The notes: generated by a model not told the origin, from the sequence alone. DNA of 64,000 nucleotides from Alphaproteobacteria bacterium (GCA_009909065.1 JAAANZ010000031.1:17596-81595), one strand, 5' to 3'. Positions 33,084-54,707 are shown, numbered from the stretch's first letter. Program-made: numbers and translations.

Positions 33084-34031
33084 TCACAGGATTGTCTGGA
33101 AACGAATGACCGCCGGCAGGATCAGGACGCCCAGCAGGACCGGGAAAACGAAGAGAATCAGAGGCACGGTCATCTTCGCGGGCAGTGCCATGGCCTTTTC
33201 CTCCGCCAGCAGGATACGGCGCTGGCGCATGTCCGTGGAGAAGATGCGTAGCGTCTGGCCGAGACTCGTGCCCATCTCCTCGGCCTGGCGCAGCATCGTG
33301 GCCAGTGATCCGGCCTCTTCAAGGCCCACCCGGTCGGCAAAGGCGCGCCACGCAGCGCGCCGCGAACGCCCGGCGCGCATTTCCAGCGCCAGTGTCTTCA
33401 GGTTCAGTGACAGTTCGCGATGGCGGTGCTGCAATTCATCTGACACGCGCATCACAGCGGCATCGAGGCTGAGGCCGGCCTCAACGCAAGCGACCAGAAG
33501 GTCCATCATGTCCGGAAAGCCCTCCGAACACTGGCGCGACTTTGCATCGATCTTCTTGTCGACCCAGATCCCCGGACCGGCAAGGCCGGCCAGCGCAAGC
33601 AGGCCACTGGCGGCGAAGGGGAACCAGTCCGGCAGGTTCATCTGTGCCAGCCGTGGCAGTGCCAGCAGGAGCAGGAGCTGTGGCGCGAGCAGCCCGGCAA
33701 TCCGCGCGGCAAAGAAATAGGGCACGGCCCGCGGAGAGGTATAGCCCGCCCGGATCAGGCGGAACCGGATGGAGCTGACCTCCCGCCCTTCGGCCGGAGC
33801 CGCACGCTCGGCGAGCCGGCCGACTGCCTCCATCACGGGCGAGCGTTTCGCGTCCCCGCTGCCGGCTTGGGCCGCCGCCGCGCCCTGGCCGCGCCGCAAC
33901 CGCTCGCCAATCCGCTCGGATGCGCCCGCCGCGCGCAACAGCGACAACACGCCCGGCAAGGCCGCGACGACCGCCAGCAAGAACAAGCCGGCAGCAAGCC
34001 ATGTGACGGGGAGGGACTCGATCGCGCTCAT
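33084..34031 (-). CDS. tadC: Tad pilus assembly membrane protein TadC (T2SF family)
   Basis: This 315-residue inner-membrane platform protein of the Flp/Tad pilus has the T2SF domain (FPDMMDLLVACVEAGLSLDAAVMRV, EEMGTSLGQTLRIFSTDMRQRR) and four membrane segments including the C-terminal FVFPVLLGVLILPAVI. It is the last gene of the minus-strand tad/cpa operon, 5 bp downstream of tadB. Confidence 0.92.
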   Translation of the reverse strand: MSAIESLPVTWLAAGLFLLAVVAALPGVLSLLRAAGASERIGERLRRGQGAAAAQAGSGDAKRSPVMEAVGRLAERAAPAEGREVSSIRFRLIRAGYTSPRAVPYFFAARIAGLLAPQLLLLLALPRLAQMNLPDWFPFAASGLLALAGLAGPGIWVDKKIDAKSRQCSEGFPDMMDLLVACVEAGLSLDAAVMRVSDELQHRHRELSLNLKTLALEMRAGRSRRAAWRAFADRVGLEEAGSLATMLRQAEEMGTSLGQTLRIFSTDMRQRRILLAEEKAMALPAKMTVPLILFVFPVLLGVLILPAVIRFQTIL

Positions 34032-34036
34032 GGACC

Positions 34037-35029
34037 TCAGAACCTGAAATTGATCATGCGGTTCATCACGATATTGCCGATCACCATCCAGGTGAAAAAT
34101 CCGCCAAGGCCATACTGGAAAAGCTTTTCATGCATGACGAGGCCGTAGAATTCCGGCCGGATGAAATGAATACCCGCCATCACCACGAAAGGCGCCGCTG
34201 TCAGGATCATCGCCGACGCTCGCCCTTCGGCCGATGCCGACTTGACCTTCAGCCGCAGGGTCTGGCGGTCGCGCACCGTCGCGGCATTGGTCTTCAACAG
34301 ATCGCAGAGATTGCCGCCCGTGCGCTCCTGAAGCCGGACGGTGGCGGCAAACAGTTCGATATCCTCATTGCCCGCGCGCAGGGCGAGACGCTCAACGGCC
34401 TGGGTCAGCGAGAAGCCGTATGCGATCTCATCGGCGGCCATGCCGAATTCGGTGCCGATCGGGTCTGGCATCTCGCGGGCGACGAGGGCCACCGCCGAGG
34501 GCACGGGATGACCCGCTTCCAGGCTGCGCACGACAATCTGCAGGGCGTCCGGCAATTGTCTTGCAAGCTGTGAGGCGCGCCGGCCGGCAAGGAACTTCAG
34601 AACCCCGAGCGGGGCCGTCAGGAAAAGCAATACCCCGACGCCGGCCCCCACCAGCCAGGCCTCGAACCGCCAGCCGATGCCGAGGGCAATCATGATGGCA
34701 AGGGCTGCCGACATCATCGCCCAGCGCACCGGCCGGAACGTCACGCCTGACCGGGTGATCAGACTGTTAAGCCGGCGCACCGCGAGTTTGAAATCGCCCT
34801 TTTCGTCAAGCGCGCGCTGGCGACGCAGCTCGACGATCAGCTCATTCGTGCTGGCCGCCTTTTCCTTGAAGCGCAGGCGGCGGTTCATGATCTGGCGGGT
34901 GCGAACCTCGCCATAGAGCCCGGTCAGGGACTGGACCAGAAGCACGAGCGCGCCAAGCGCGAGGATCACGGCCATCACCGTGGTCGTGTCATATTCGGTC
35001 GGATCGAGAAGGCCGGGGTCGAAAGGCAT
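34037..35029 (-). CDS. tadB: Tad pilus assembly membrane protein TadB (T2SF family)
   Basis: This 330-residue platform protein pairs with TadC under the CpaF ATPase. The T2SF motif is visible as LPDALQIVVRSLEAGHPVPSAVALVA, and RTGGNLCDLLKTNAATVRDRQTLRLK lies in the cytoplasmic loop. An N-terminal TM (VILALGALVLLVQSL) and C-terminal TMs are present. It lies 7 bp after cpaF. Confidence 0.92.
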   Translation of the reverse strand: MPFDPGLLDPTEYDTTTVMAVILALGALVLLVQSLTGLYGEVRTRQIMNRRLRFKEKAASTNELIVELRRQRALDEKGDFKLAVRRLNSLITRSGVTFRPVRWAMMSAALAIMIALGIGWRFEAWLVGAGVGVLLFLTAPLGVLKFLAGRRASQLARQLPDALQIVVRSLEAGHPVPSAVALVAREMPDPIGTEFGMAADEIAYGFSLTQAVERLALRAGNEDIELFAATVRLQERTGGNLCDLLKTNAATVRDRQTLRLKVKSASAEGRASAMILTAAPFVVMAGIHFIRPEFYGLVMHEKLFQYGLGGFFTWMVIGNIVMNRMINFRF

Positions 35030-35036
35030 TTTGCGC

Positions 35037-36431
35037 TCAGAGGGGATGGGCCGGGTCGAACATGCTTTCGGGCATGTGAACGCCGCGCCGGTTCATCTCG
35101 TCGAGGAATTTCGGCCGGATGCCGGTGGCCCGGAAATGGCCGTGCACCTTGCCGTCATCATCGGTATGGGTGCGCTCGAAACGAAAGATCTCCTGCATCT
35201 GGACGACCGGGCCCTCCATGCCGGTGATCTCGGCGATGGAGACGGTCTTGCGCGAGCCGTCCGACAGGCGCGTGGCCTGGACAATGAAATTCACTGCGGC
35301 GGCGATCTGCCCGCGAATCGCGTCTTCGGAGATTTTCAGCCCGCCCATGGCCACCATCTGTTCCAGCCGGGTGATCGCATCGCGCGGATTGTTGGCATGG
35401 ATCGTCGCCATCGAGCCTTCATGACCGGTGTTCATGGCCTGGAGCATGTCGAAGGCTTCCTCCGAACGCACCTCGCCGAGGATCACCCGGTCCGGGCGCA
35501 TGCGCAGGGCATTCTTGACCAGTTCGCGCTGCTTGATCTCGCCCTTGCCCTCGATATTCGGGGGACGGGTCTCCATGCGCGCGACATGCGGCTGCATCAG
35601 CTGCAGTTCGGCGGCGTCCTCGATCGTGATCAGGCGTTCCTTGTGGCTGATCGAGGCCGACAGCGCATTGAGCAGCGTTGTCTTGCCCGAGCCGGTGCCC
35701 CCGGAAATGATGGTCGAGGCACGGCATTTCACAGCGCCCGAAATAAAGTCCGCCATGGCCTGCGGCAGGGCGCCGAAACCGACCAGCTTGTCGAGCGTCA
35801 GCGGGTTTTTCTTGAATTTGCGGATCGAAACGAGCGGCCCGTCGATCGCGATGGGCGAGATGGCGGCATTGAAGCGCGAACCATCCGTCAGGCGCGCATC
35901 GACCAGCGGCTGGCTCTCATCGACTCGGCGTCCGACAGCCGCCACGATCCGGTTCACGATGCGCAGGAGGTGGTCATTGTCGGCAAACCTGACCGGGGCA
36001 AGCTCCAGCTCGCCGCCGCGTTCGACATAGACCTGATGACAGCCATTGATCAGGATGTCGGCAATCGAATCGTCCTTGAGCAGGGGTTCGATCGGGCCAA
36101 GCCCCGTCATCTCGTCGAAGACGGCGTCCGCGAACGCGGTTTCCTCGGCCGCCGACAGCGCGATATCGTCCGCCCGGATGATCTCGAGGACCACCTGGCG
36201 GACCTGGCTGCGAAGCTGGGCTTCTTCCAGCCGTTCCATGGCCGACAGGTCGAGTTCGTCGATCAGCCGCGCATGAATGCGCAGCTTGGCTTCGAGCATC
36301 ATCTCGTCCTTGTTGACCGCCGGCGCGGCGGGCGCGGCGGCCGGCTCTGCGGCGCCAGCGGCCTGGCTGGCCGCATCGGGCGTCTCCTGGGGCTCCGGCG
36401 GGCGCTCAAGCGTGCGCGTGAAGCGGCCCAT
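35037..36431 (-). CDS. cpaF: Tad pilus ATPase CpaF/TadA
   Basis: This 464-residue secretion ATPase of the VirB11-like type powers Flp pilus assembly. Motifs are Walker A SGGTGSGKTTLLNAL, Asp box ITIEDAAELQL, Walker B-region RPDRVILGEVRSEEAFDMLQAM and the His box GSMATIHANNP. The N-terminal domain reads RLIDELDLSAMERLEEAQLRSQVR. The ATG at 36431 overlaps the expected cpaE stop (TGATG). In the sequence as given, the frameshifted cpaE runs in frame into cpaF, which is why the ORF track shows one 951-residue ORF. Confidence 0.95.
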   Translation of the reverse strand: MGRFTRTLERPPEPQETPDAASQAAGAAEPAAAPAAPAVNKDEMMLEAKLRIHARLIDELDLSAMERLEEAQLRSQVRQVVLEIIRADDIALSAAEETAFADAVFDEMTGLGPIEPLLKDDSIADILINGCHQVYVERGGELELAPVRFADNDHLLRIVNRIVAAVGRRVDESQPLVDARLTDGSRFNAAISPIAIDGPLVSIRKFKKNPLTLDKLVGFGALPQAMADFISGAVKCRASTIISGGTGSGKTTLLNALSASISHKERLITIEDAAELQLMQPHVARMETRPPNIEGKGEIKQRELVKNALRMRPDRVILGEVRSEEAFDMLQAMNTGHEGSMATIHANNPRDAITRLEQMVAMGGLKISEDAIRGQIAAAVNFIVQATRLSDGSRKTVSIAEITGMEGPVVQMQEIFRFERTHTDDDGKVHGHFRATGIRPKFLDEMNRRGVHMPESMFDPAHPL

Positions 36432-37598
36432 CAGCGCCCTCCCCCGGCCGCGGCCCCGGCGGGCGATTGGCCGGCGGTGCAGGACGCCTCGATCAGTTCG
36501 CAGACATCCCTGACCAGCGGGCTCTTTTCCTTCACCTGCGCCACCGGCATGCCGAGATTGACGGCCATGCGCGCGGAGTCCCAGTCCGAGCGCACCGTGA
36601 AGTCGATGCTGCGTGCTGCGGTGAATGGCCCGTTCGGCCTTTTCGATAGGAAAACTGTGGCGATGGCTGCGCTTGGCGAACATCCGGTTGAGAATGAGCC
36701 GCGCAGGCGTGGCCGCCTCGCGTATCACATCGACCTCCCGGCAGAGATCTGCCGCGGCGTGGAGGCTGGGGACAGTCAGCTCGCTGACGATAAAGACCTC
36801 GTCGGCCGCCGCCTGGATGGGCTGGGTCCAGGCGAGCTTGTGGCGCGGCAGATCGACAATGACATGATCGAACATGCTGCAGGCCACGTCGAGAAGCTGC
36901 AGGATGCCGGCCTCGCTGGCCATCGTGTCGCCATCGGGATGGCGGGGCGGCGCGATCAGGCTGATCTGCTTCTCATGACGCCAGGTATAGACCCGCATGA
37001 GATTGGCATCTATGCGCTCGGGCGCGGCACAGACCGCCTCAAGGTCGAGCTTGGCCTGCCCGTCGAGATAGGAAGCGGCCATCCCGCAGGCGAGATTGAG
37101 GTCGATCAGGCACACACCCTGCCTGCCCTCGCGCCGTGCCAGGGCGAATGCCGCTTCTATTGCCAGCGTCGTGACGCCCGCCCCGCCGACCGCACCGCGA
37201 AAAACCCAGCAGGTCGATCCGTTGGTCGTCTCCCCGGCCGACGGCTGTTGCAGGTCGCGCGACAGCTGGCTGATCGTGTCGAGCAGTTCCTCGCGCGTGG
37301 CCGACGAGGACAGCACATCCGAAGCGGCAAAGCGGAACAGCGCCCGAACCGCCTGGCCCGGCAGGTCATCGCCGACAACAACCATGGCGGCGTCGGGCCG
37401 GCGCAGCGCATAGGCTTCCAGAAGCGAGAGCGCCCCTTCGCAGCCATTGTCGATCACGACGACATGACCCGGCAGCTCACAGGTCGCCTCATTTCCCGGG
37501 ATGTGCGAAAGGTCATGCGCCTGGGGGTATTCCTCGCGCACCGCGGCCACCGCCTCCGCGCGAAGATGCAGCGCAAGCTCTGGGAAAGGCCCGGCCAT
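36431..37598 (-). pseudogene. cpaE: Tad pilus localisation/assembly ATPase CpaE/TadZ, frameshifted by a 7-bp tandem duplication
   Basis: CpaE is a MinD/ParA-like protein with an N-terminal pseudo-receiver that places the pilus machine at the pole. Visible are the receiver-like VVIDNGCEGALSLLEAYALRRPDAAMVVV, deviant Walker A FRGAVGGAGVTTLAIEAAFALA and LIDLNLACGMAASYLD. The duplication of TGCTGCG at 36607-36620 shifts the frame after FPIEKAERAIHR. Removing one copy gives RSIDFTVRSDWDSARMAVN and a normal C-terminus ending at the cpaF start (386 residues). The ATG at 37598 overlaps the upstream lipoprotein stop. Confidence 0.9.
36607..36620. repeat. 7-bp perfect tandem duplication in cpaE
   Basis: The unit TGCTGCG occurs twice head to tail. 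Removing one copy restores AIHRSIDFTVRSD in CpaE and its native stop. Confidence 0.95.
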
Positions 37599-37855
37599 CA
37601 GTTCGTGCCCATCGGCTGGAGGTCCTCGCTCTTGCCGTCGCGAAGCGCGGCGACCGCCTGTCCGGCCCGCCCGCCGCTGCCGCCCTCGACGCCTTTCATG
37701 TTCAGCGCGTCCAGCGGGCGGATCGCCTGTTGGCGCAGATTGTGTTCGCTGGCCGCGCCCAGGATTGCGACATTTGCGGTCTCGCGGCTTGCGCATCCCG
37801 CCGCGGGAATCAGGGCCGCGACCAGGGCCAGCTTCATCAGTCGGGTCATTGTCAT
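37598..37855 (-). CDS. Small pilus-operon lipoprotein (CpaD-position)
   Basis: This is an 85-residue predicted lipoprotein: signal KLALVAALIPAAGC with an acylatable Cys, then a short periplasmic part ending GRAGQAVAALRDGKSEDLQPMGTN. It occupies the place between secretin (cpaC) and cpaE where cpaD normally lies, overlapping both neighbours by 4 or fewer bases. Its C-terminal GRAGQAVAALRDGK is weakly CpaD-like, but the protein is less than half CpaD's usual length. It is probably the pilotin-like or CpaD-like component of this pilus. Confidence 0.65.
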   Translation of the reverse strand: MTMTRLMKLALVAALIPAAGCASRETANVAILGAASEHNLRQQAIRPLDALNMKGVEGGSGGRAGQAVAALRDGKSEDLQPMGTN

Positions 37856-39162
37856 CCTCTCGCTTCGTCTGTCTCACTGTCGGCCGGCTCACCGATCGAG
37901 CGGTTCAGGAGGAACATTTCCGCTTCGCTCGGCGCCTCGAAGCTCTGCAGCGGCGTGGCGAGCGCATCGACAGACGGCGCCGGCTGCACCAGGCGCGGCG
38001 TCACGATGATGACCAGTTCGGTCTCCTTGCGCTGGTAGCGCCGCGAGGAGAACAGCGCCCCGATCACCGGCACATCCGAAAGCCAGGGCGTGTTGACCGC
38101 TTCATTATTGAAAGAGTTCTGCAGCAGGCCGGCAATCGCGAAGGCCTGGCCATCGCGAAGTTCCACGGACGTATCGGCCCGGCGGACGGACAGGGCCGGA
38201 ACGGTCACACCGGCCGAGCGGACCGCATTGCGATTGTCCAGCGAGCTGACCTCCGGGCGAACATGCAGGTTGATCAGGCCGTCGCCGAGAACGGTCGGCG
38301 TGAACGCCAGGCTGACGCCGAATTCGCGGAACTGGATCGTCACCTCATCATCGCCATTGGCAACAGGGATCGGGAATTCGCCGCCGGCCAGGAAGCTCGC
38401 CGTGTCGCCGGACAGGGCGACGAGGTTGGGCTTGGCCAGCGTGCGCAGAACGCCCTTGGATTCCAGGGCATTCAGGCGGACATCGATATTCTCGGTGCCG
38501 ACATTGGTGAATGTGGCAACGGCCTTGCCGGCAAGGCCCGAGACCAGCCCGCCTGCCGTGCCGCCGGTGACGTCATTGGCGTCGAACTGGGTACCGAATC
38601 CCAGCTCACGGATCCGGTCTCGCCCCGCCTCGACGAAGCGCACTTCCAGCATCACCTGCTGGCTTTCCACCGTGGTCAGGCCATTGGCGACACCGCCCGG
38701 CACATGCCGCTCGGCCACTTTCAGGGCCATGTCGGCGGCCGCCGCCGTGGTCAGGCGCCCATCGAGAAAAATCCCGTCATGAACCGGATAGACCGTGATG
38801 TCCTCGCCCGGCAGGAGGCGGCCGAGATCGGCGCGCAGGGCGTCGAGCCCCATGGTCACTTCCAGGTCGATCATCTCCACCAACTCGCCTGCTTCGTCAT
38901 AGAGCAGGATCGTGGTTTCGCCGGGCTTTTTCCCGCGCACGAAAAAGGAGCGGTTCGTCGTCACCATCGCCTCGGCGATCTGCGGATCGGACAGGACAAT
39001 CATGGAAAACCCGGTCTCGGCCTCGACAACGGTCGACTTGCTCTTCTCAAGCGTCAGGACGGGCGCGCCCTCCTCGGCCTTCAGTTCCGTCCAGGCCCCG
39101 GCTGGCAGGGCGGATGCGGCGATGGCGACGAGCGCGATGCAAAGGGTGAAGAACTGTCTCAT
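37852..39162 (-). CDS. cpaC: Tad pilus secretin CpaC/RcpA
   Basis: This is a 436-residue outer-membrane secretin with signal peptide CIALVAIAASALPAGAW. The N-terminal BON/N0-like domain (KSTVVEAETGFSMIVLSDPQIAEAMV) is followed by an N1 domain (EDITVYPVHDGIFLDGRLT). The secretin core has VMLEVRFVEAGRDRIRELGF, FLAGGEFPIPV and VPVIGALFSSRRYQRKETELVIIVTPRLV. It overlaps cpaB by 4 bp. Confidence 0.94.
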   Translation of the reverse strand: MRQFFTLCIALVAIAASALPAGAWTELKAEEGAPVLTLEKSKSTVVEAETGFSMIVLSDPQIAEAMVTTNRSFFVRGKKPGETTILLYDEAGELVEMIDLEVTMGLDALRADLGRLLPGEDITVYPVHDGIFLDGRLTTAAAADMALKVAERHVPGGVANGLTTVESQQVMLEVRFVEAGRDRIRELGFGTQFDANDVTGGTAGGLVSGLAGKAVATFTNVGTENIDVRLNALESKGVLRTLAKPNLVALSGDTASFLAGGEFPIPVANGDDEVTIQFREFGVSLAFTPTVLGDGLINLHVRPEVSSLDNRNAVRSAGVTVPALSVRRADTSVELRDGQAFAIAGLLQNSFNNEAVNTPWLSDVPVIGALFSSRRYQRKETELVIIVTPRLVQPAPSVDALATPLQSFEAPSEAEMFLLNRSIGEPADSETDEARG

Positions 39163-40112
39163 GAGGCGGCTCCCTCGCCGGCCACGGGTGTCTCGACGGT
39201 CTGTTTTTCCGTGCCGTGCACGACGTCGATCTCGGTGCGCGCAGCCGGGCGCGGCTTCGGTGTCGGCGCGCGGGCCGGGACAGCGCGCTTGACCCGGCGC
39301 GGCTCGGGGGCCGGGCGGCTCGCCGTCCTGCTGGTCCTGACAGGCTTCGGCTCGGGCGCCTCGCGGTCATCGGCGTCCTCGGCCTTTTCCAGTTTCCTCG
39401 CCTCGTCATCGCCGATCAGGGCCAGCCCGAGCTGGCTGTCGCGCGCGGCCGAGGTCACCTTGAGTACCTCATCCTCGCTGAGCGCGAGTGTGACCGTGCG
39501 CGAGGGCATGGCGCCCTCGGCATGGGCCTCGAAATTCTGGTCCACGGCCAGGACCTGCACGCCTTTCAGAAGCGGCTCAGCCTCAAAGGCATCCGGCCCC
39601 TCGCCGCCCGGATTGGGTTCGAAAACATTGATGTCGACCCGGTTGCCCGGCAACACGAAACCCGCCACGCCGGTTTCCAGGGTCACCGAAATGGATGCAG
39701 CCCGCTTGCCTTCGGGAATGTCCTGGGCCAGGTAGCGGCGCGGCGGCTGATAAGCGAGCTTGGCCGGCAGGATCGGCTCGCCCGCCGCGATGAATCCGCG
39801 CGCGACCGGCATGGCCCCGTCTTGCGGCGCCAGCTGGGAAGCATCTTCGAGCGGATCGGGAAGCCCCGCCGCGAGCGGCCACTCTCCGGCTTCAACAAGG
39901 TCGGCTGTCACCATCATGCCGGTCTCGATATCGCTGCGCGCGACGAGAACCGGCTGCATGGCCGGCGCCTTTTCGACAGCCGGCCGGGTGGGCGCAGCCT
40001 GCGTCGCACCGGCCTTCTCCGATTCGGGAAAAAGCCAGCCGCGCCCGATAACCAGGGCGGCCACGCCCAGAAGAAGCGACACGCCGAGACTGATGATTGG
40101 TGCGAGTTTCAT
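39159..40112 (-). CDS. cpaB: Flp pilus assembly protein CpaB/RcpC
   Basis: This 317-residue protein has an N-terminal TM (ISLGVSLLLGVAALVI) and an SAF/RcpC domain (PVLVARSDIETGMMVTADLVE, then GFIAAGEPILPAKLA). RAASISVTLETGVAGFVLPGNRVDINVF is typical of CpaB. The C-terminus is extended, rich in Pro, Arg and Glu, and looks disordered. It is the first gene of the operon here; the pilin, cpaA peptidase and tadD genes are not in the window. Confidence 0.92.
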   Translation of the reverse strand: MKLAPIISLGVSLLLGVAALVIGRGWLFPESEKAGATQAAPTRPAVEKAPAMQPVLVARSDIETGMMVTADLVEAGEWPLAAGLPDPLEDASQLAPQDGAMPVARGFIAAGEPILPAKLAYQPPRRYLAQDIPEGKRAASISVTLETGVAGFVLPGNRVDINVFEPNPGGEGPDAFEAEPLLKGVQVLAVDQNFEAHAEGAMPSRTVTLALSEDEVLKVTSAARDSQLGLALIGDDEARKLEKAEDADDREAPEPKPVRTSRTASRPAPEPRRVKRAVPARAPTPKPRPAARTEIDVVHGTEKQTVETPVAGEGAAS

Positions 40113-44289: not shown

Positions 44290-46686
44290 TCAGGCCGAGC
44301 GGGGTCCCCTGCGGGCGGCTTTGCGTACCTGTGGGGCATTCAGCATGGCGACACGGGTCTCGTCACCGGCCTGTTCGGGCGGCTCTCCCGCGCCCGGCGA
44401 TACCGGCAGCAGGTGTGAGAGTTCTTCAAGCGTCTTGGCCCGCGAAATCAGGAAGCCCTGAATTTCGTCACAGCCATGTTCGGAGAGGAACCGCCACTGG
44501 GCCTCGGTCTCGACGCCTTCCGCCGTGCAGCGCTTGCCGAGCGAATGGGCAAGGCCAATCGTGGTGCGCGTGATCACCCGGCTGTCCTCATTCGACTCAA
44601 GATCGCTGACAAAGGATTTGTCGATCTTGATCTTGTCGAACGGGAAACTGCGCAGATAACTCAGCGAGGAAAAGCCGGTGCCGAAATCATCGAGTGATAT
44701 CTTCAGGCCGATGGATTTGAGCTGCATCAGCCGCTCCAGCACGAAATCGGTGTCCGCGATCAGAACGGATTCGGTGATTTCCAGGTCAAGCCGCGAGGGA
44801 TCGATGCGGTTGCGCGCCAGGGCGTTGACGATGGTGCTGACCAGCGTCGTGCTGTGAAGCTGGAGCGGCGAGATATTCACCGAAACGCCCACATTCTCCG
44901 GCAGGAACCGGGCCTGTGCCAGCGCCTCGCGGATGGCCCAGTCGCCCATGCGCGTGATCAGGCCGCAATCCTCGGCATGTTCGATGAACTGCCCGGGCAT
45001 GATCGCGCCGCGCTCGGGATGATGCCAGCGCATCAGGGTTTCGCAGGAGACGACCTGGCTTGTTTGCGCATCGATGATCGGCTGAAATTTCAGGCAAAGC
45101 TCATTGTTGCCGAGCGCGGTGTAGAGATCGCTTTCGATCATGCGGCGCGCACGCGCCTTGGCGTCGAGATCGGCGGTGAAGGCGCACCAGTTGCCCTTGC
45201 CGCTCGTCTTGGCCTTGTAGAGCGCGAGATCGGCATGGGTGAGCATGGCCTGCGAGTCGGCATCGCCCGGCTCGAACCGGCGCACACCGGCGCTCGCCCC
45301 GCAATTGGCTGTGGACCCCCATATGTCGTAAGGCTGGTTGAGCCGGGCCAAGAGATCATCGAGGAACCGTTCGAAGGAGCCGTCGTCGCGCCGCTCGACC
45401 AGCAGCGCAAACTCGTCGCCTCCCAGGCGCGAGATCGTGTCACCCGGCTCGCAGGAATGCGCCATGCGCTCGGCAAGCTGGCGCAGCAATTCGTCTCCTG
45501 CCGGATGACCCAGCGTGTCATTGACCCATTTGAAATTGTCGAGATCCAGCCAGAGGATCGCGCGCACATGGCCCGGCGGGACCGGCATCTGCACCAGGCG
45601 TTCCAACCGCTCCTGGAAAGTGGCGCGGTTGGGAAGCCCGGTCAGCCCGTCGAAATGCGCAAGATGGGCAATCTTGTCCTCGATTTTCTTGGACTGGGTG
45701 ATGTCGGAGGCAACGCCGCGAAAGCCGACGAAAGTGTCGTCCTCGAAAATCGGCTTGCCGGTGATGGACCACCAGCGTTCCTCGTCATCGATATTGACGC
45801 GCAGGGCAAGGTCGCGAAATCCCTGCTGGCGGGAGATACAGGTGGACAGGATCTTTCGCGCTTCGCTGCGTTCAAACAGGGAGACCAATGACCGGCCATG
45901 CGCCATCAGGCTGTAGCCCGATTTTCCGCCGTCGATTGACAGCGGAAGGGCCTCGAGCCGACCGCGCGAATCGGTCTGCCAGAGCCAGTCGGAGGTGCTC
46001 TCCTCGAAATCGCGCAGCAGAAGGCCAATCAGGGAATTGTGCTCGGCCACGGCCGCTTCGTTGAGATGCTGGGCCAGGAACTGGTTATAGTCCCAGCGGA
46101 TGCAGACAGCGATCACCGCCGCATAACAGATCACGAGGAGGGAGAGGTGCGCGAGATTGACCCCGGGCAGGAATTGCAGCGCCACGATGTAACCCGCGGC
46201 CACCGGCAGGGTGAAGCAGAAGGCGGCCGACGGTATCCGGGAAAGGATCGATGCGGCGCCGAAGATCATCCCTGCGCAAACTGTTGCGATCGCGAGATGA
46301 TCCATCGGGTCCGCAGCCGGCATGGTCAGGATCGGGAAAACGCCCCATAGCAGGCCAAAGGCCAGCGCCCCGAAGGAATGTCGCTGAATCCCGCGCCCGG
46401 ACCTTTCCTTCGCCGGCGCATGTCCCCGCGATTGGATAACCATCGTGAAATGGATGGCGCAGGCCAGGCTGAGCGCACTGCCCCAGAGGCCGAGATACCC
46501 CCCTGCCCCGTCATCCATCAGGATGACCATGACCAGCGCCGCGTTCAGCAGGTTGGTCAGCACAACCAGGATTCCGAGCCGGTTCACGCTGTCGAGCTGG
46601 CGCGCCCGTATCCGGTCGACCTGTTCGTCCGGCACGTTCACCGGCGCGATGATGGACGCGATCGTGTAGCGCTCGCTCATGTCCAT
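44290..46686 (-). CDS. Membrane-bound PAS-GGDEF-EAL c-di-GMP enzyme
   Basis: This is a 798-residue cyclic di-GMP signalling protein. About six TM segments (residues 30-215) form the sensor. A PAS domain (DFEESTSDWLWQTDSRGRLEAL, then FRGVASDITQSKKIE) leads into GGDEF with LGGDEFALL, where no RxxD inhibitory site precedes it. The EAL domain has ETLMRW in place of EALLRW but keeps VSVNISPLQL, LEITESVLI, SLDDFGTGFSS, KIDKSFV and AEGVET. Both activities may exist, and the sequence does not decide the balance. The start is MDMSERY at 46686; MSERY at 46680 is equally possible. Confidence 0.92.
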   Translation of the reverse strand: MDMSERYTIASIIAPVNVPDEQVDRIRARQLDSVNRLGILVVLTNLLNAALVMVILMDDGAGGYLGLWGSALSLACAIHFTMVIQSRGHAPAKERSGRGIQRHSFGALAFGLLWGVFPILTMPAADPMDHLAIATVCAGMIFGAASILSRIPSAAFCFTLPVAAGYIVALQFLPGVNLAHLSLLVICYAAVIAVCIRWDYNQFLAQHLNEAAVAEHNSLIGLLLRDFEESTSDWLWQTDSRGRLEALPLSIDGGKSGYSLMAHGRSLVSLFERSEARKILSTCISRQQGFRDLALRVNIDDEERWWSITGKPIFEDDTFVGFRGVASDITQSKKIEDKIAHLAHFDGLTGLPNRATFQERLERLVQMPVPPGHVRAILWLDLDNFKWVNDTLGHPAGDELLRQLAERMAHSCEPGDTISRLGGDEFALLVERRDDGSFERFLDDLLARLNQPYDIWGSTANCGASAGVRRFEPGDADSQAMLTHADLALYKAKTSGKGNWCAFTADLDAKARARRMIESDLYTALGNNELCLKFQPIIDAQTSQVVSCETLMRWHHPERGAIMPGQFIEHAEDCGLITRMGDWAIREALAQARFLPENVGVSVNISPLQLHSTTLVSTIVNALARNRIDPSRLDLEITESVLIADTDFVLERLMQLKSIGLKISLDDFGTGFSSLSYLRSFPFDKIKIDKSFVSDLESNEDSRVITRTTIGLAHSLGKRCTAEGVETEAQWRFLSEHGCDEIQGFLISRAKTLEELSHLLPVSPGAGEPPEQAGDETRVAMLNAPQVRKAARRGPRSA

Positions 46687-46988
46687 TTCTGTGCTGGAGC
46701 CCACGCGCCGCCTCCTTCGCCGGGTTCTCGAATACTCTGTGACCTTGTGAGGACCTATCCGACGAAGCTGAATCCGGCCCTTTGCGGATCGGTGAAATTC
46801 GACAGACACGGCGGCGCGTTCGAAAACCGCACCTGGTTTCGGGTGATGGACCCAGCCTTCCTGTCATCCATGCCCCTGCCCCGTCGCAGCAGTTACAGAG
46901 AGGCCGAGGGACCCGCGGCTGTCCCGATCGCGGGTTGAGACCGCCGCCAAGCCGTCCCGGCGCCCGCGGCCCCTGGCTGACAAAAAAA

Positions 46989-47097
46989 CTGTTTGAATTT
47001 CGCGTTCTGATGACTTTTCCGAAAATTCGCGTGAATTCGGAAAGGTCTTGTTAGGGTCCGTTTTTCTGTTTGAAATTCGTGTTTTACAGGCCTTTCC
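46989..47097. repeat. Pair of imperfect 32-bp direct repeats
   Basis: CTGTTTGAATTTCG... at 46989-47020 and CTGTTTGAAATTCG... at 47066-47097 align without gaps with 24 of 32 identities, both ending TTTCC; the starts are 77 bp apart. They are candidate regulator binding sites upstream of the stalk/barrel operon. Confidence 0.6.
47016..47043. promoter_or_regulatory. Inverted repeat TTTCCGAA-N12-TTCGGAAA
   Basis: A perfect 8-bp dyad with a 12-nt spacer lies between the two direct repeats. It is a possible operator; no regulator gene is adjacent. Confidence 0.45.
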
Positions 47098-47242
47098 TTG
47101 AAACGGGCAGCAAGCCGCCAGGCCGATATGTTTCGCCCGGCACCGCCGCGCGGATCCGCTGCGAATTTGCCCGTTTCAAACCGGTGTTAACCAAGGCCGA
47201 CTAGTCTGTACCCATACAAAAAGAGACCTTTGGGTGACAGTG

Positions 47243-47659
47243 ATGAAACAGGTGATGACAGGGGCTGCGGCAGGCCTTGCCAGCCTCGTGCTCCTGACCG
47301 CGAGCGGCGAGCCCGCCGACGCCGATCTCTGGATCGGGCTCGCCGGCAGCCAGGACGGATTCCTTCTCGACGAAGCCACAGGCGAAGTCTGGATGACCGG
47401 TGCGTGCCTTCGCAGGCTCGAACCGGCCCGCCGCGAGGGATCGGCCTGGGTGTCGCGGACCCGCGAATTCGTCTCGGTCGGGCGCATGACGGCCCGGCTC
47501 GACCAGACCTTCCGTCTGGAGACACACCCGCAGGCCCCGCAGATCTCGGTCTACAATCCGGATCGCGGCGGCGAGCAGGCCTTTTCCGATGTGGAGCTGA
47601 TCGCCTGTGACACCGGGGCCTGCGATCGCTTCGGCGCAAGCCCGCGCTGCGCGGACTGA
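47243..47659 (+). CDS. Secreted hypothetical protein, 138 aa
   Basis: I do not recognise the family. An N-terminal signal (GAAAGLASLVLLTASGEPADA) is followed by a small beta-rich domain (LWIGLAGSQDGFLLDEATGEVWMTGACLR). Three cysteines are in the mature part, two of them at the C-terminus (ACDTGACDRF). It is followed 47 bp later by the large stalk/barrel gene on the same strand and probably forms an operon with it. The start could also be the GTG at 47234. Confidence 0.6.
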   Translation: MKQVMTGAAAGLASLVLLTASGEPADADLWIGLAGSQDGFLLDEATGEVWMTGACLRRLEPARREGSAWVSRTREFVSVGRMTARLDQTFRLETHPQAPQISVYNPDRGGEQAFSDVELIACDTGACDRFGASPRCAD

Positions 47660-47706
47660 GCTCGCCGGCCGGCCGATGCCGGCCACCGCGCCTGACGGAC
47701 CGAACC

Positions 47707-50700
47707 ATGTTTCGCAAGCTTGCCCTCCTGGCAGCCCTGTGCGCTGCCCTGCCGGCCCTTCCCGGCCCGTCCGCCCTTCCGGCCCATGCCGAAAGGGCGA
47801 CAGGCCACGTGGAAGCTGCGCCCGGCCAACAGGGCAGCATCATGCATGTCACCCTGATTGTCGAAGGCGAGGCTGTTGAGACCCGTCAGAAAGTGGATGG
47901 AGAGGGACGCACGCTGATCGATGCCCGGCCTGTCATCGAGGCGCTGAGGGGCGAGATTTCGAAGCAGGACAGCCGGCTGGTCATCCGCCGTTACCAGGAC
48001 GGCGCCCGCATGAGCATCGATTTCACCGACGGCAAGGTGCGCGCGGGCAAATCGGTGCTCGGAAAACTGCCGGACTGGACGGCGAAAGAGACGCCGGACA
48101 CCTGGCTGGAAGCCAATGCGATCGCCGTGCTCACGGGCTGCCATATCAAGGAAGGCGAAGACGGCCGGCTCATCCTGACCCTTGATGACAGGCTGCGCCC
48201 GCAATTCGATCTCGACCTGTTCGTCGAAGGCGAGCGCCTCGCCTTCCTGGATGCCGAGCCGCGCACCGTGGGTTCGATCCTGCTCATCCCGCTGCGCCCC
48301 GTGGCCGAGGCGCTTGGCCATGAGGTTCGCGAAGACACGGCCGCCGGCACGGTCTCCGTCACGCGGATACAGGATTCGGCACAATTCACGCTGAACCTCT
48401 CGACCGGCCTGGTCTCCGTGAACGGCGAACCGCGCGGAGTCACGCCGAATATCAGCTATGCCGAGCCGGGCCGGCTCCTTCTGCCCTTTTCGGCGGTCGA
48501 AACCCTCACCGGCACGCATATCGTGCTCAAGCCGGGCTCGGACCGGATCGATGTTCGCCTTGACGACCGCCTGTCCACCGGCGCGCTTCCCGGCGCTCGT
48601 GTCGCCGAGGATGCGGCCGACACGCCGCTGACGCCGGAGCGGCTGGACTTTGCGCTCACCAGCCGCGCCAGCAACACGGCCGCCCTTCATGCACGCCTGC
48701 GCGGTTTCCGGGCTGTCACGCGCTATGAGACCGTCGGGGGTTTCGGCGCGGCCGGGGAACTCCAGCCGCGCTGGCTGTCCATGGATGTCGAATCGCTCTC
48801 GGGCTGGCAGGGCAGTCTCGGCGATGCCACCCCGCGTCTTGGCGAACTGAATGGCGTCGGCATCTCGCGGATCCGCGGGGCCACCTGGCGCAAGCGCACC
48901 GAAAGCGACACGATCATCGCGATCGCCGCCGGCGTGCCGCTGGCCGGCACCACGCCGGTCAGCCAACGTGCCTCCCGCCCGGATTTCGACGGCGCGGCAG
49001 CCGGTGTGCGTCATATCAACCCCGAAAAGCGCCGCGAAGTCGGGCTCGCTTACAGCAGCGGCCCGCATGGCGGCTCCGCCCGCCTGGTCGCCAGTCTCAG
49101 GCAGGAAATCGTGACGGATGCCGACGGCGAGGGCCGCGCCGGACTGGCCGGGCTCTTCGCAAACGCCGATCTCGGCGTGTTCGAAGACGCTGTAGATCTT
49201 CGCGCCCAGGTCGATGCCCATTACCGACTGTCGCGGCGCTCCAGCGTGCGCGCCGCTGTCAGTCATGAAGGCGCGAACTTCCTGAAGGGCGCGGAACCGC
49301 AGATCGACGCCGAGGATGAGACCGACCTTCCCGGCACGCCGGACTTGCCGGGCGCAGCGAACCCGGAGACGGCCGGTGAAAGCTTGGCTCTTGCCGATTC
49401 GCCTGATGAGACCGGACGCACCCGCGCCGACCTGTCGGTGGACTGGCGCGCCCGCAAGGCGTGGGGGCTGTTGCACAACCCGGCCGCGGGCGCGCGGGTT
49501 TCGGCCATGAAAGCCGGCGACACCGTCTCGCGCGGGCTTTCGCTTTCGGGCAGTGCGCGGCTGGGCGCCAATGGCGCCGACCTGTCAGTCAATCTGGGTC
49601 ATGCGGCCACCGAGACCGGCGGTGATGACACCTCGCAAACCACGCTCAGCCTGCGCGGCCTGCGCCATTTCGACTGGGGCCGTGTCGATGCCAGCTACAA
49701 TCTCACGCAAACCGAGGAAAGCCGCCGCCAGCGTTTCGTGACCACGATCACGGGCCGCCCGCTGCGCCGCGCGCTTGGCAAGGAGGCAAGCGTGTCTGTC
49801 GCCCCCTCGGCCAGCGCGGTCTCCGATGCCAACGGACAATTCGCCCGTCTTGGCGGAGTTGCCAGCGTCCATAGCGGGCAGGCCCTTGGCGAGCGCCTGT
49901 CGATCAGCGCCCGGGTCTCGGCGCTGCAATCGGTCAATCCGGACCGCGCGCGCACCGACTTTTTCGGTTCCATGCAGGCGAAATATCGCGTTTACCGCGC
50001 CGTCCGCCTGGAGGCCGCCTATTATGACAATTTTCGTGACAGCCGAAGTCTGTCGGTCGGCCTGCGCGGCAGCCTGGTGTTCAATCCGCCGCGAAAGCAC
50101 AATCTCCCGCTGGAAGGGCGCGGCGTCCTGAAGGGACAGGTCTATTTCGACCGCAACCGTGACGGTGTTCGCCAGGACGACGAACCCGGCATTCCCGGCG
50201 TGCGCGTCGGGGTGCGCAATACACGGCTCGGCCTGCAGGTCGATTCCAATGGTTATTACACGATCCAGAACATGACCACCGGCCTGTTCGCGCTGCGGGT
50301 CGACCGTCGCAGCCTGCCGCTCGGCATGCTGGTGCGCGAGGACGCCGCGCTTCGCGCCACGATCGGCGAAGGCCGGATCACCCGGCTCGATATCCCGGTC
50401 ATTGCCAGCGGGCAGATCCGCGGCAGTGTCTTCATCGACAGGGATGGCGACGGCGCGCCCGGGCCCGGCGACACACGCCTTGAGGGGGCCTGGCTGACCC
50501 TGGCCGCTCTCGATGACGGGCAGGGCGAACCGGCCGAGCAGGCAGCGGCCAGTTTCGGCCAGTATGCCTTTGATGGGCTTTCGCCGGGACGCTACAGGCT
50601 GACAGTGCATCATGGCGGGCGCCAGCGCGATCATGTCATCGAACTGACCGAGGACGAGTTGTTCGCGGTCCGCCACCTGCCGCTTCCCGCGCCTGACAAA

Positions 50701-50757
50701 CCACCCGGCGGCAGTGATCCACCGGCCGACGCCGAACCGGTCGAATTTGTCGCATGA
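47707..50757 (+). CDS. Large outer-membrane protein: stalk domains, beta-barrel-like region and two SdrD-B-like domains
   Basis: This is a 1016-residue exported protein with signal peptide ALLAALCAALPALPGPSALPAHA. Residues about 45-290 form two or more copper-amine-oxidase-N-like (stalk) repeats (TLIDARPVIEALRGEI, LLIPLRPVAEALGHEV, LLLPFSAVETLTGTH). Residues about 315-800 are alternating amphipathic strands, barrel-like. The C-terminus has two SdrD-B/Cna-B-like domains with calcium-type loops (FDRNRDGVRQDDEPGIPGV, FIDRDGDGAPGPGDTRLEGA). The layout recalls fimbrial ushers and surface-display barrels, but no usher chaperone gene is adjacent. Function not known. Confidence 0.65.
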   Translation: MFRKLALLAALCAALPALPGPSALPAHAERATGHVEAAPGQQGSIMHVTLIVEGEAVETRQKVDGEGRTLIDARPVIEALRGEISKQDSRLVIRRYQDGARMSIDFTDGKVRAGKSVLGKLPDWTAKETPDTWLEANAIAVLTGCHIKEGEDGRLILTLDDRLRPQFDLDLFVEGERLAFLDAEPRTVGSILLIPLRPVAEALGHEVREDTAAGTVSVTRIQDSAQFTLNLSTGLVSVNGEPRGVTPNISYAEPGRLLLPFSAVETLTGTHIVLKPGSDRIDVRLDDRLSTGALPGARVAEDAADTPLTPERLDFALTSRASNTAALHARLRGFRAVTRYETVGGFGAAGELQPRWLSMDVESLSGWQGSLGDATPRLGELNGVGISRIRGATWRKRTESDTIIAIAAGVPLAGTTPVSQRASRPDFDGAAAGVRHINPEKRREVGLAYSSGPHGGSARLVASLRQEIVTDADGEGRAGLAGLFANADLGVFEDAVDLRAQVDAHYRLSRRSSVRAAVSHEGANFLKGAEPQIDAEDETDLPGTPDLPGAANPETAGESLALADSPDETGRTRADLSVDWRARKAWGLLHNPAAGARVSAMKAGDTVSRGLSLSGSARLGANGADLSVNLGHAATETGGDDTSQTTLSLRGLRHFDWGRVDASYNLTQTEESRRQRFVTTITGRPLRRALGKEASVSVAPSASAVSDANGQFARLGGVASVHSGQALGERLSISARVSALQSVNPDRARTDFFGSMQAKYRVYRAVRLEAAYYDNFRDSRSLSVGLRGSLVFNPPRKHNLPLEGRGVLKGQVYFDRNRDGVRQDDEPGIPGVRVGVRNTRLGLQVDSNGYYTIQNMTTGLFALRVDRRSLPLGMLVREDAALRATIGEGRITRLDIPVIASGQIRGSVFIDRDGDGAPGPGDTRLEGAWLTLAALDDGQGEPAEQAAASFGQYAFDGLSPGRYRLTVHHGGRQRDHVIELTEDELFAVRHLPLPAPDKPPGGSDPPADAEPVEFVA

Positions 50758-53855: not shown

Positions 53856-54689
53856 TCAGGGCACGAAGACCGTATAGGTCACGTCGGCCTCGATTTCGCC
53901 TGCGCCCATGGACAGGTCATAGCCCGCCGCGCCGCCGAGCGAATAGGTCACGTCGAAACGCACCGACTGGTCGGCGATGGACCCGGTGCTGGCCGCCGTG
54001 CGCTGGTCGCCCGTGAAGACGTTGGCCGCCGTCGACAGATCGTCGAGCGTCGAGATCGACCCCGAAACACCGCCGCCAGCGCCGCCCGAATGCGGGAACT
54101 GCGCGGCCGAACCGAAGGCCAGGCCGTCATCGCCCGACTGGGTCACGGCCATATCGAAGCCGACATCGGTCAGGGCGAAATTGTCGGATGTCGTCGCGCT
54201 GGCTTCCGCATCGATCGCAAAGGCCGTGTTCGAGGCGACATAGAAGCTCGACTCCATCTCGGCGCCATCGGCCGCGATATCGGTGGTGCCGTCGAGACCG
54301 AAAGCCGTGAAGGCATCGGCCGCGTCAAGCTGGCCGGTGGTGCCGCCATCGGTGAAGGCGCCGCCGCTGGTCGCGTCGGTGACCGACAGCATCGAGCCGT
54401 CGGACAGGGAATCCGGGGTCGGGCTCAGCGAACCGGTGATGACCGTGTGGACATCGTCGGAGATGAGGTCGGCATCGCCCGAGGCGGCCGCCGTCGTGCC
54501 CGTGCCCGTGTCGATGACGAAATCAGAGACAACCGGCGCGGTGTCCGAGGCATCAGCGCCCCAGACGATCACGAGGCCGAGCAGGCCGAGCACCTTGAAA
54601 TGCGGATTGTCGACAATCGATGCCTGCGCCGGCGCGGCGGTCGCCACCGCGAGTGCAGCGCCTGCAAGCAGGGCCTTCTTGAAATTCAT
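53856..54689 (-). CDS. Secreted fimbrin-like hypothetical protein, 277 aa
   Basis: Signal peptide LLAGAALAVATAAPAQA is followed by a conserved-looking hydrophobic segment FKVLGLLGLVIVWGA. A long Asp/Thr/Ser/Ala-rich beta domain without cysteines follows, ending in a strand pair (IEADVTYTVFVP). Acidic, repeat-poor and ending in an aromatic strand, it resembles fimbrial or surface-layer subunits, but I cannot name a family. I chose the ATG at 54689 because GGAG lies 7 nt upstream. It may be a substrate of the stalk/barrel protein 3 kb away; that is only inference. Confidence 0.65.
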   Translation of the reverse strand: MNFKKALLAGAALAVATAAPAQASIVDNPHFKVLGLLGLVIVWGADASDTAPVVSDFVIDTGTGTTAAASGDADLISDDVHTVITGSLSPTPDSLSDGSMLSVTDATSGGAFTDGGTTGQLDAADAFTAFGLDGTTDIAADGAEMESSFYVASNTAFAIDAEASATTSDNFALTDVGFDMAVTQSGDDGLAFGSAAQFPHSGGAGGGVSGSISTLDDLSTAANVFTGDQRTAASTGSIADQSVRFDVTYSLGGAAGYDLSMGAGEIEADVTYTVFVP

Positions 54690-54707
54690 GCTTTGCTCCA
54701 TCTACCC

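Follow-up and report, generated by a model that had tools for sequence, protein, structure and literature searches.

The P0001 locus and its genes

The window, i.e., the whole 64,000-nucleotide stretch of DNA that was analyzed, belongs to a genome assembly (G000) that is ~80% complete. It carries a gene for a small secreted protein (P0002) followed by one for a large, putatively usher-like protein (P0001), and a second secreted protein (P0003) is encoded on the opposite strand, ~3 kb from P0001. The features of the locus, with the evidence for each, are as follows.

46984..47188, no strand assigned: intergenic repeats upstream of P0002 (repeat analysis)
47234/47243-47659, plus strand: P0002, a secreted Cys protein of 138-141 aa, putative operon partner (ORF, signal peptide)
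47707..50757, plus strand: P0001, a putative usher-like outer-membrane protein of 1016 aa (ORF, Pfam, AlphaFold2, Foldseek, hhalign)
47836..48564, plus strand: two N-terminal stalk/Cu_amine_oxidN1-like domains of P0001, residues ~44-286, putative periplasmic N-domain (Pfam PF07833, AlphaFold2, weak profile match)
48619..50082, plus strand: predicted beta-barrel of P0001, residues ~305-792 (AlphaFold2 strands, Foldseek)
50119..50688, plus strand: two C-terminal SdrD-B/CarboxypepD beta-sandwiches of P0001, residues ~805-994, probable CTD1/CTD2 equivalents (Pfam, hhalign)
53856..54701 (start probably 54689), minus strand: P0003, a secreted protein of 277-281 aa, putative fimbrial subunit (family confined to P0001 carriers)

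P0002 contains four Cys residues and ends 48 nt upstream of P0001. Pairwise dN/dS values of 0.05-0.10 (0.10 for P0002) indicate purifying selection on both P0001 and P0002, which we therefore regard as functional genes. Full-length P0001 orthologues with 34-46% identity were found in 12 named records, the relatives including Henriciella, Hyphomonas, and other Hyphomonadaceae, and viral contigs yielded no relatives. In 9 of the 12 related loci, a four-Cys P0002 orthologue lies upstream of P0001; L027 has a shortened copy, L024 a degenerate one, and L025 none. Searches of Pfam and NCBIfam returned no match for P0002, a disulfide-capable, operon-linked protein that may contribute to assembly or be incorporated as a minor subunit. 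An earlier interpretation of this DNA (the sequence-only reading) had placed genes at 47243 and 47707 and had assigned stalk, barrel-like, and two SdrD-B-like regions to the second of them, all of which are borne out by the ORFs, Pfam matches, AlphaFold2 model, and dN/dS values.

The repeats noted in the same reading upstream of these genes are likewise real. They comprise a perfect 12-bp inverted repeat (47098-47109/47168-47179), which arose by chance in 2 of 300 shuffles, and an imperfect 32-nt direct repeat (46989-47020 and 47066-47097). A search upstream of seven orthologues did not recover the inverted-repeat motif, and we therefore give the region no weight.

Two other genes in the window deserve mention. 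A GGDEF-EAL cyclic-di-GMP protein (44290-46809, minus strand) is encoded divergently from P0002-P0001, and the intergenic region with the repeats may serve both. In addition, a Tad pilus cluster (33084-40112) contains a single 951-aa ORF (35037-37892, minus strand) that combines CpaE-like AAA_31 and CpaF/TadA-like T2SSE sequences in an apparent CpaE-CpaF fusion.

Domain architecture and predicted fold of P0001

Pfam analysis of P0001 revealed Cu_amine_oxidN1 (PF07833) at residues 173-272 (E 2e-10), SdrD_B in two stretches at 811-866 (E 1.8e-13), and CarboxypepD_reg at 925-981 (E 5.8e-11), with no match for the middle of the protein. The copper amine oxidase catalytic domain was absent from the Pfam results, so that only the N-terminal stalk-type domain of such enzymes is represented. 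The AlphaFold2 model, based on 13 sequences and of moderate confidence (mean pLDDT 71, pTM 0.44), places stalk-like domains with a beta-beta-helix pattern at residues ~46-160 and 170-285, some 26 consecutive long strands at 309-791, and C-terminal sandwiches at 805-893 and 896-994. The barrel that the sequence-only reading had expected from structure prediction of 47707-50757 is thus predicted, with a strand number close to the ~24 of usher barrels.

A Foldseek search of the model against the PDB returned ushers at ranks 1-7 and 9-11, with SdrD at rank 8. The best match was FimD (3rfz, E 1.1e-18), and other FimD/PapC entries followed down to 1e-8. The TM-scores were low (0.2-0.4), as is to be expected with uncertain domain orientations, and the fold search accordingly supports an usher reading of P0001 without proving it.

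Ushers consist of an N-terminal domain, a pore, a plug, and two C-terminal domains, CTD1 and CTD2 (PMC3960871). The domain order of P0001 is the same, minus any visible separate plug, and the former view that this order does not correspond to a standard usher is not supported: N-domain, barrel, CTD1, and CTD2 make up usher anatomy. No separate plug domain was identified in the AlphaFold2 secondary structure. Residues 400-475 have the length of a plug and show weak strand alternation. This amphipathicity measure does not tell plug from barrel in FimD, and it was therefore dropped as a plug test.

Partner genes and their distribution in Hyphomonadaceae

We analyzed 105 genomes of Hyphomonadaceae, of which 18 carry full-length P0001 and 87 do not. 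A close form of a 285-aa chaperone-like protein occurs in 16/18 carriers and 0/87 others (Fisher p 5e-17), and the P0003-type family occurs in 15/18 carriers, at 2-5 copies per genome, and again in 0/87 others (Fisher p 1.5e-15). These p-values ignore shared ancestry; the carriers span three genera, and the link thus extends beyond a single genus, though the genomes are still not independent. The two carriers lacking the chaperone are G061, with stops in both genes, and G058, an incomplete, fragmented assembly. Three further genomes (G044, G047, and G064) possess P0001 and the chaperone with no detectable subunits, which may be too divergent to detect in these strains. Collectively, the P0002 and P0003 distributions bear out the previously suspected link of P0001 with the proteins encoded at 47243 and 53856.

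Three loci have the genes for the chaperone and subunits next to P0001. In L016 and L017, P0001 is followed by a convergent P0003-like secreted gene and then by a gene for a secreted protein of 282-285 aa, and in L025 P0001 is succeeded, in this order, by subunit B, a chaperone-like protein, and a P0003 homologue that is 47% identical to P0003. In the genome of the window, the set is spread over three contigs: contig C115 carries the chaperone-like gene together with another subunit gene, the two overlapping by a single base, and a P0003 paralogue (54%) lies on contig C89. The genes between P0001 and P0003 in the window presumably encode pyridine nucleotide transhydrogenase subunits, as judged by eye. 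A hydrophobic N-terminal stretch is conserved in the P0003 family. Profile comparison of P0003-type subunits with FimA-type and DUF4402-type pilins gave no similarity, and since pilin similarity is undetectable, we apply the label "subunit" by association only. Directly beside the P0003 paralogue on C89 is an ORF for a 194-aa secreted protein (L034:10302-10886), which has no family match.

In the chaperone superfamily, the residue equivalent to CsuC Pro59 is invariant, and the one equivalent to CsuC Arg89 is found only in archaic and alternative chaperones (PMC4654587). Within our cleaned chaperone family of 16 HMM-confirmed ORFs, the Pro is present in 15/16 and the Arg in 14/16, and their spacing in the reference sequence is 30 residues, the same as in CsuC. 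In the alignment, both residues also occur in EcpB and EcpE, while FimC, YadV, and SfmC have the Pro without the Arg. Thus, at the sequence level, the 285-aa partner carries the Pro/Arg signature of the archaic and alternative pathways. Comparison of the family with usher-linked chaperones gave 98.9% (E 3e-17), against 0.2% for the reversed control. PF00345 (PapD_N) did not match either of the two 285-aa chaperones that were scanned; the link to PapD_N runs via the chaperones of more distant relatives (see below), two of which match PF00345 weakly. The AlphaFold2 model of the chaperone was of low confidence (pLDDT 56) and gave no significant fold match.

Further inspection of the P0001 locus, beside the trigger-factor gene, uncovered barrel-less P0001 remnants of 350-570 aa in 11 genomes (L083-L093). 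Some of them keep the stalk-like stretch, and most keep a DWR..W motif together with the C-terminal sandwich. In genus g4 (the Henriciella group), the genomes with such a remnant have no subunits and only a divergent chaperone. In the two remnant groups that were compared, dN/dS was 0.35-0.44, indicating relaxed selection.

Relationship to ushers and proposed function

The PF00577 usher profile does not match P0001, and neither do the other usher profiles of NCBIfam and Pfam. PF00577 has no match in the genome of the window and is present in 26/105 relatives. Direct profile comparison of P0001 with the E. coli ushers was also not significant. We searched the whole class with a P0001 profile, which recovered distant relatives through the C-terminal unit. 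The matches are proteins of 990-1280 aa whose genes neighbor those of PapD-like chaperones and of small secreted proteins. The top non-self matches mostly fall in clusters with PapD-like proteins of 270-290 aa and secreted proteins of 155-235 aa (L145, L146, L147, L148, L150, L151, L152, L154, and L155). Weak similarity to DUF4402 was seen in two subunits and one chaperone of these clusters. Among eight relatives that were scanned, one (D150) matches PF00577 at E 3.2e-5, just below the cut-off. Against 13 ushers from E. coli and Hyphomonadaceae, eight such proteins gave 99.4% (E 1.7e-21) over the whole length in hhalign and 98.3% for the barrel alone, with 3% for TonB receptors and 3% for reversed ushers as controls. 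Judged by these profile comparisons, the eight relatives are ushers.

P0001 itself matches the eight relatives at 99.3% overall, mainly owing to the C-terminal unit, which on its own matches that of chaperone-linked ushers at 99.5% (E 4e-22). The N-domain gave 43% (E 2.5e-4) against the relatives' N-domain; with reversed controls of 8-40%, this value and those of the barrel are no more than suggestive. The P0001 barrel gave 7% (small set) and 32% (larger set) against the relatives, with a reversed control of 8%, and 1.7% against ushers directly. Each of these E-values stems from one pairwise profile comparison and has meaning only relative to the reversed and TonB controls. In terms of sequence profiles, homology to ushers therefore covers the C-terminal unit, together with collinear weak matches, and is not provable for the barrel alone. 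An unambiguous hit to an established usher family, which had been named in advance as evidence against a new type of system, did not emerge from the direct PF00577 search and was approached only via the intermediate families. Given the failure of PF00577 and the unproven barrel homology, we call P0001 usher-like, a candidate for a new chaperone-usher lineage, and leave it outside the Pfam usher family, whose profile it fails to match.

The archaic (sigma) pathway, represented by Acinetobacter Csu with its CsuC chaperone and CsuD usher, shares with our system the chaperone Pro/Arg pair at the same 30-residue spacing, its presence in Alphaproteobacteria, and the predicted usher layout of an N-domain, a barrel, and two C-terminal sandwiches. 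Unlike Csu, however, P0001 escapes PF00577, has stalk/Cu_amine_oxidN1-like N-domains in place of a recognizable PapC_N, and ends in SdrD-B-type domains; in addition, the ~280-aa subunits have no pilin profile match, and the genes are scattered in some genomes. The alternative (alpha) pathway of E. coli Ecp, with its EcpC usher, resembles the system in the Pro/Arg signature of EcpB/EcpE, but it differs in that P0001 has no usher profile match and the subunits have no similarity to known pilins. Alphaproteobacterial ushers with SdrD/CarboxypepD C-termini (L145-L155) resemble P0001 in a homologous two-domain C-terminal unit, homologous chaperones, and a collinear layout. Several of them contain an Ig-like (Big_6/TcfC-like) insert at ~365-440 and two contain POTRA, features not seen in P0001, whose barrel has diverged far. 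Finally, staphylococcal Sdr proteins (MSCRAMM) share the SdrD-B fold at the C-terminus, but P0001 lacks any match to an A domain or cell-wall anchor and is predicted to be a Gram-negative barrel protein with a chaperone.

We considered three other explanations. P0001 might be an outer-membrane anchor (an adhesin or S-layer anchor) whose own stalk and SdrD-B domains are presented at the surface and which exports nothing, in which case the chaperone and P0003 would form an independent neighboring system. SdrD-B and stalk domains are indeed common in surface proteins in Pfam, and barrel-less forms retaining stalk and C-terminal stretches persist at the same locus in the 11 related genomes. We nonetheless find this unlikely, since the chaperone and subunits accompany full-length P0001 almost absolutely, the short-form genomes lack subunits and show relaxed selection in both groups compared, and the C-terminal unit resembles the periplasmic domains of chaperone-linked ushers. 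The sequence-only reading had left the choice between anchor and export channel undecided; the usher fold match, the chaperone, and the subunit co-occurrence favor the channel for surface filaments.

The chaperone and subunits might instead be exported by a second usher of the same genome, as the first part of an usher of related type, truncated by the end of its contig, is present (G000:C78:7-681; L193, minus strand). This type is sparse, however, being near full-length in G003, G013, G020, G024, and G061 and split in G106, whereas the chaperone and subunits track P0001; moreover, in G020 it adjoins a separate, weakly related chaperone match. Export by this second usher is accordingly very unlikely. 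That P0001 is a TonB-dependent receptor, or some other transport barrel with no part in secretion, is the most improbable of the three. TonB receptors do appear in the Foldseek list after the ushers, the first at E 6.6e-8 and others weaker, but P0001 has no TonB or plug match in Pfam, gave 1.8% in hhalign against six TonB receptors, and co-occurs with a chaperone and subunits.

We conclude that P0001 is probably (at roughly 0.78) an outer-membrane usher that belongs to a non-classical and highly divergent chaperone-usher pathway. On the evidence of its architecture, its partners, and its partial homology, it would work like an usher, in keeping with its conservation, the synteny in relatives, and the chaperone homology with its signature residues. 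The SdrD-B domains, formerly taken for a rigid spacer, are better read as usher-type periplasmic domains in view of their homology to chaperone-linked ushers, and they are probably CTD1/CTD2-type assembly domains rather than an external spacer. In the mechanism we propose, P0003, its paralogue, and the chaperone-coupled subunit would enter the periplasm by Sec, where the 285-aa chaperone would hold them. The subunits would then dock on the stalk-like domains at the P0001 N-terminus and be joined to the growing fiber at the two C-terminal sandwiches, and the fiber would be pushed out through the P0001 barrel. We infer translocation, a donor-strand exchange from subunit to subunit, and a location of the SdrD-B domains in the periplasm by analogy with established usher biology.

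A search of the literature available to us found no described system of this kind. It is possible, at somewhat below even odds, that the system represents a separate chaperone-usher lineage, confined in our samples to Hyphomonadaceae, that has stalk-type recruitment domains, a pore without a classical plug, and fibers built from subunits with no sequence relationship to known pilins. Surveys of chaperone-usher systems based on PF00577 miss the P0001 system and probably many related alphaproteobacterial ushers as well. If confirmed, our reading would add a divergent chaperone-usher lineage in Hyphomonadaceae, would suggest that secretion pores can go unrecognized among large barrel proteins annotated with SdrD-B and Cu_amine_oxidN1, and would provide natural variants for probing which usher domains are essential (N-domain type, plug).

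The two POTRA-bearing relatives mentioned above are usher-like proteins of ~1220-1280 aa (L145:6619-10467 and L150:6776-10450). Their N-terminal POTRA_2 domains have E-values of 2.5e-9 and 1.5e-14, respectively, and both proteins are encoded in clusters with chaperones and subunits. To our knowledge, POTRA domains on an usher are unusual.
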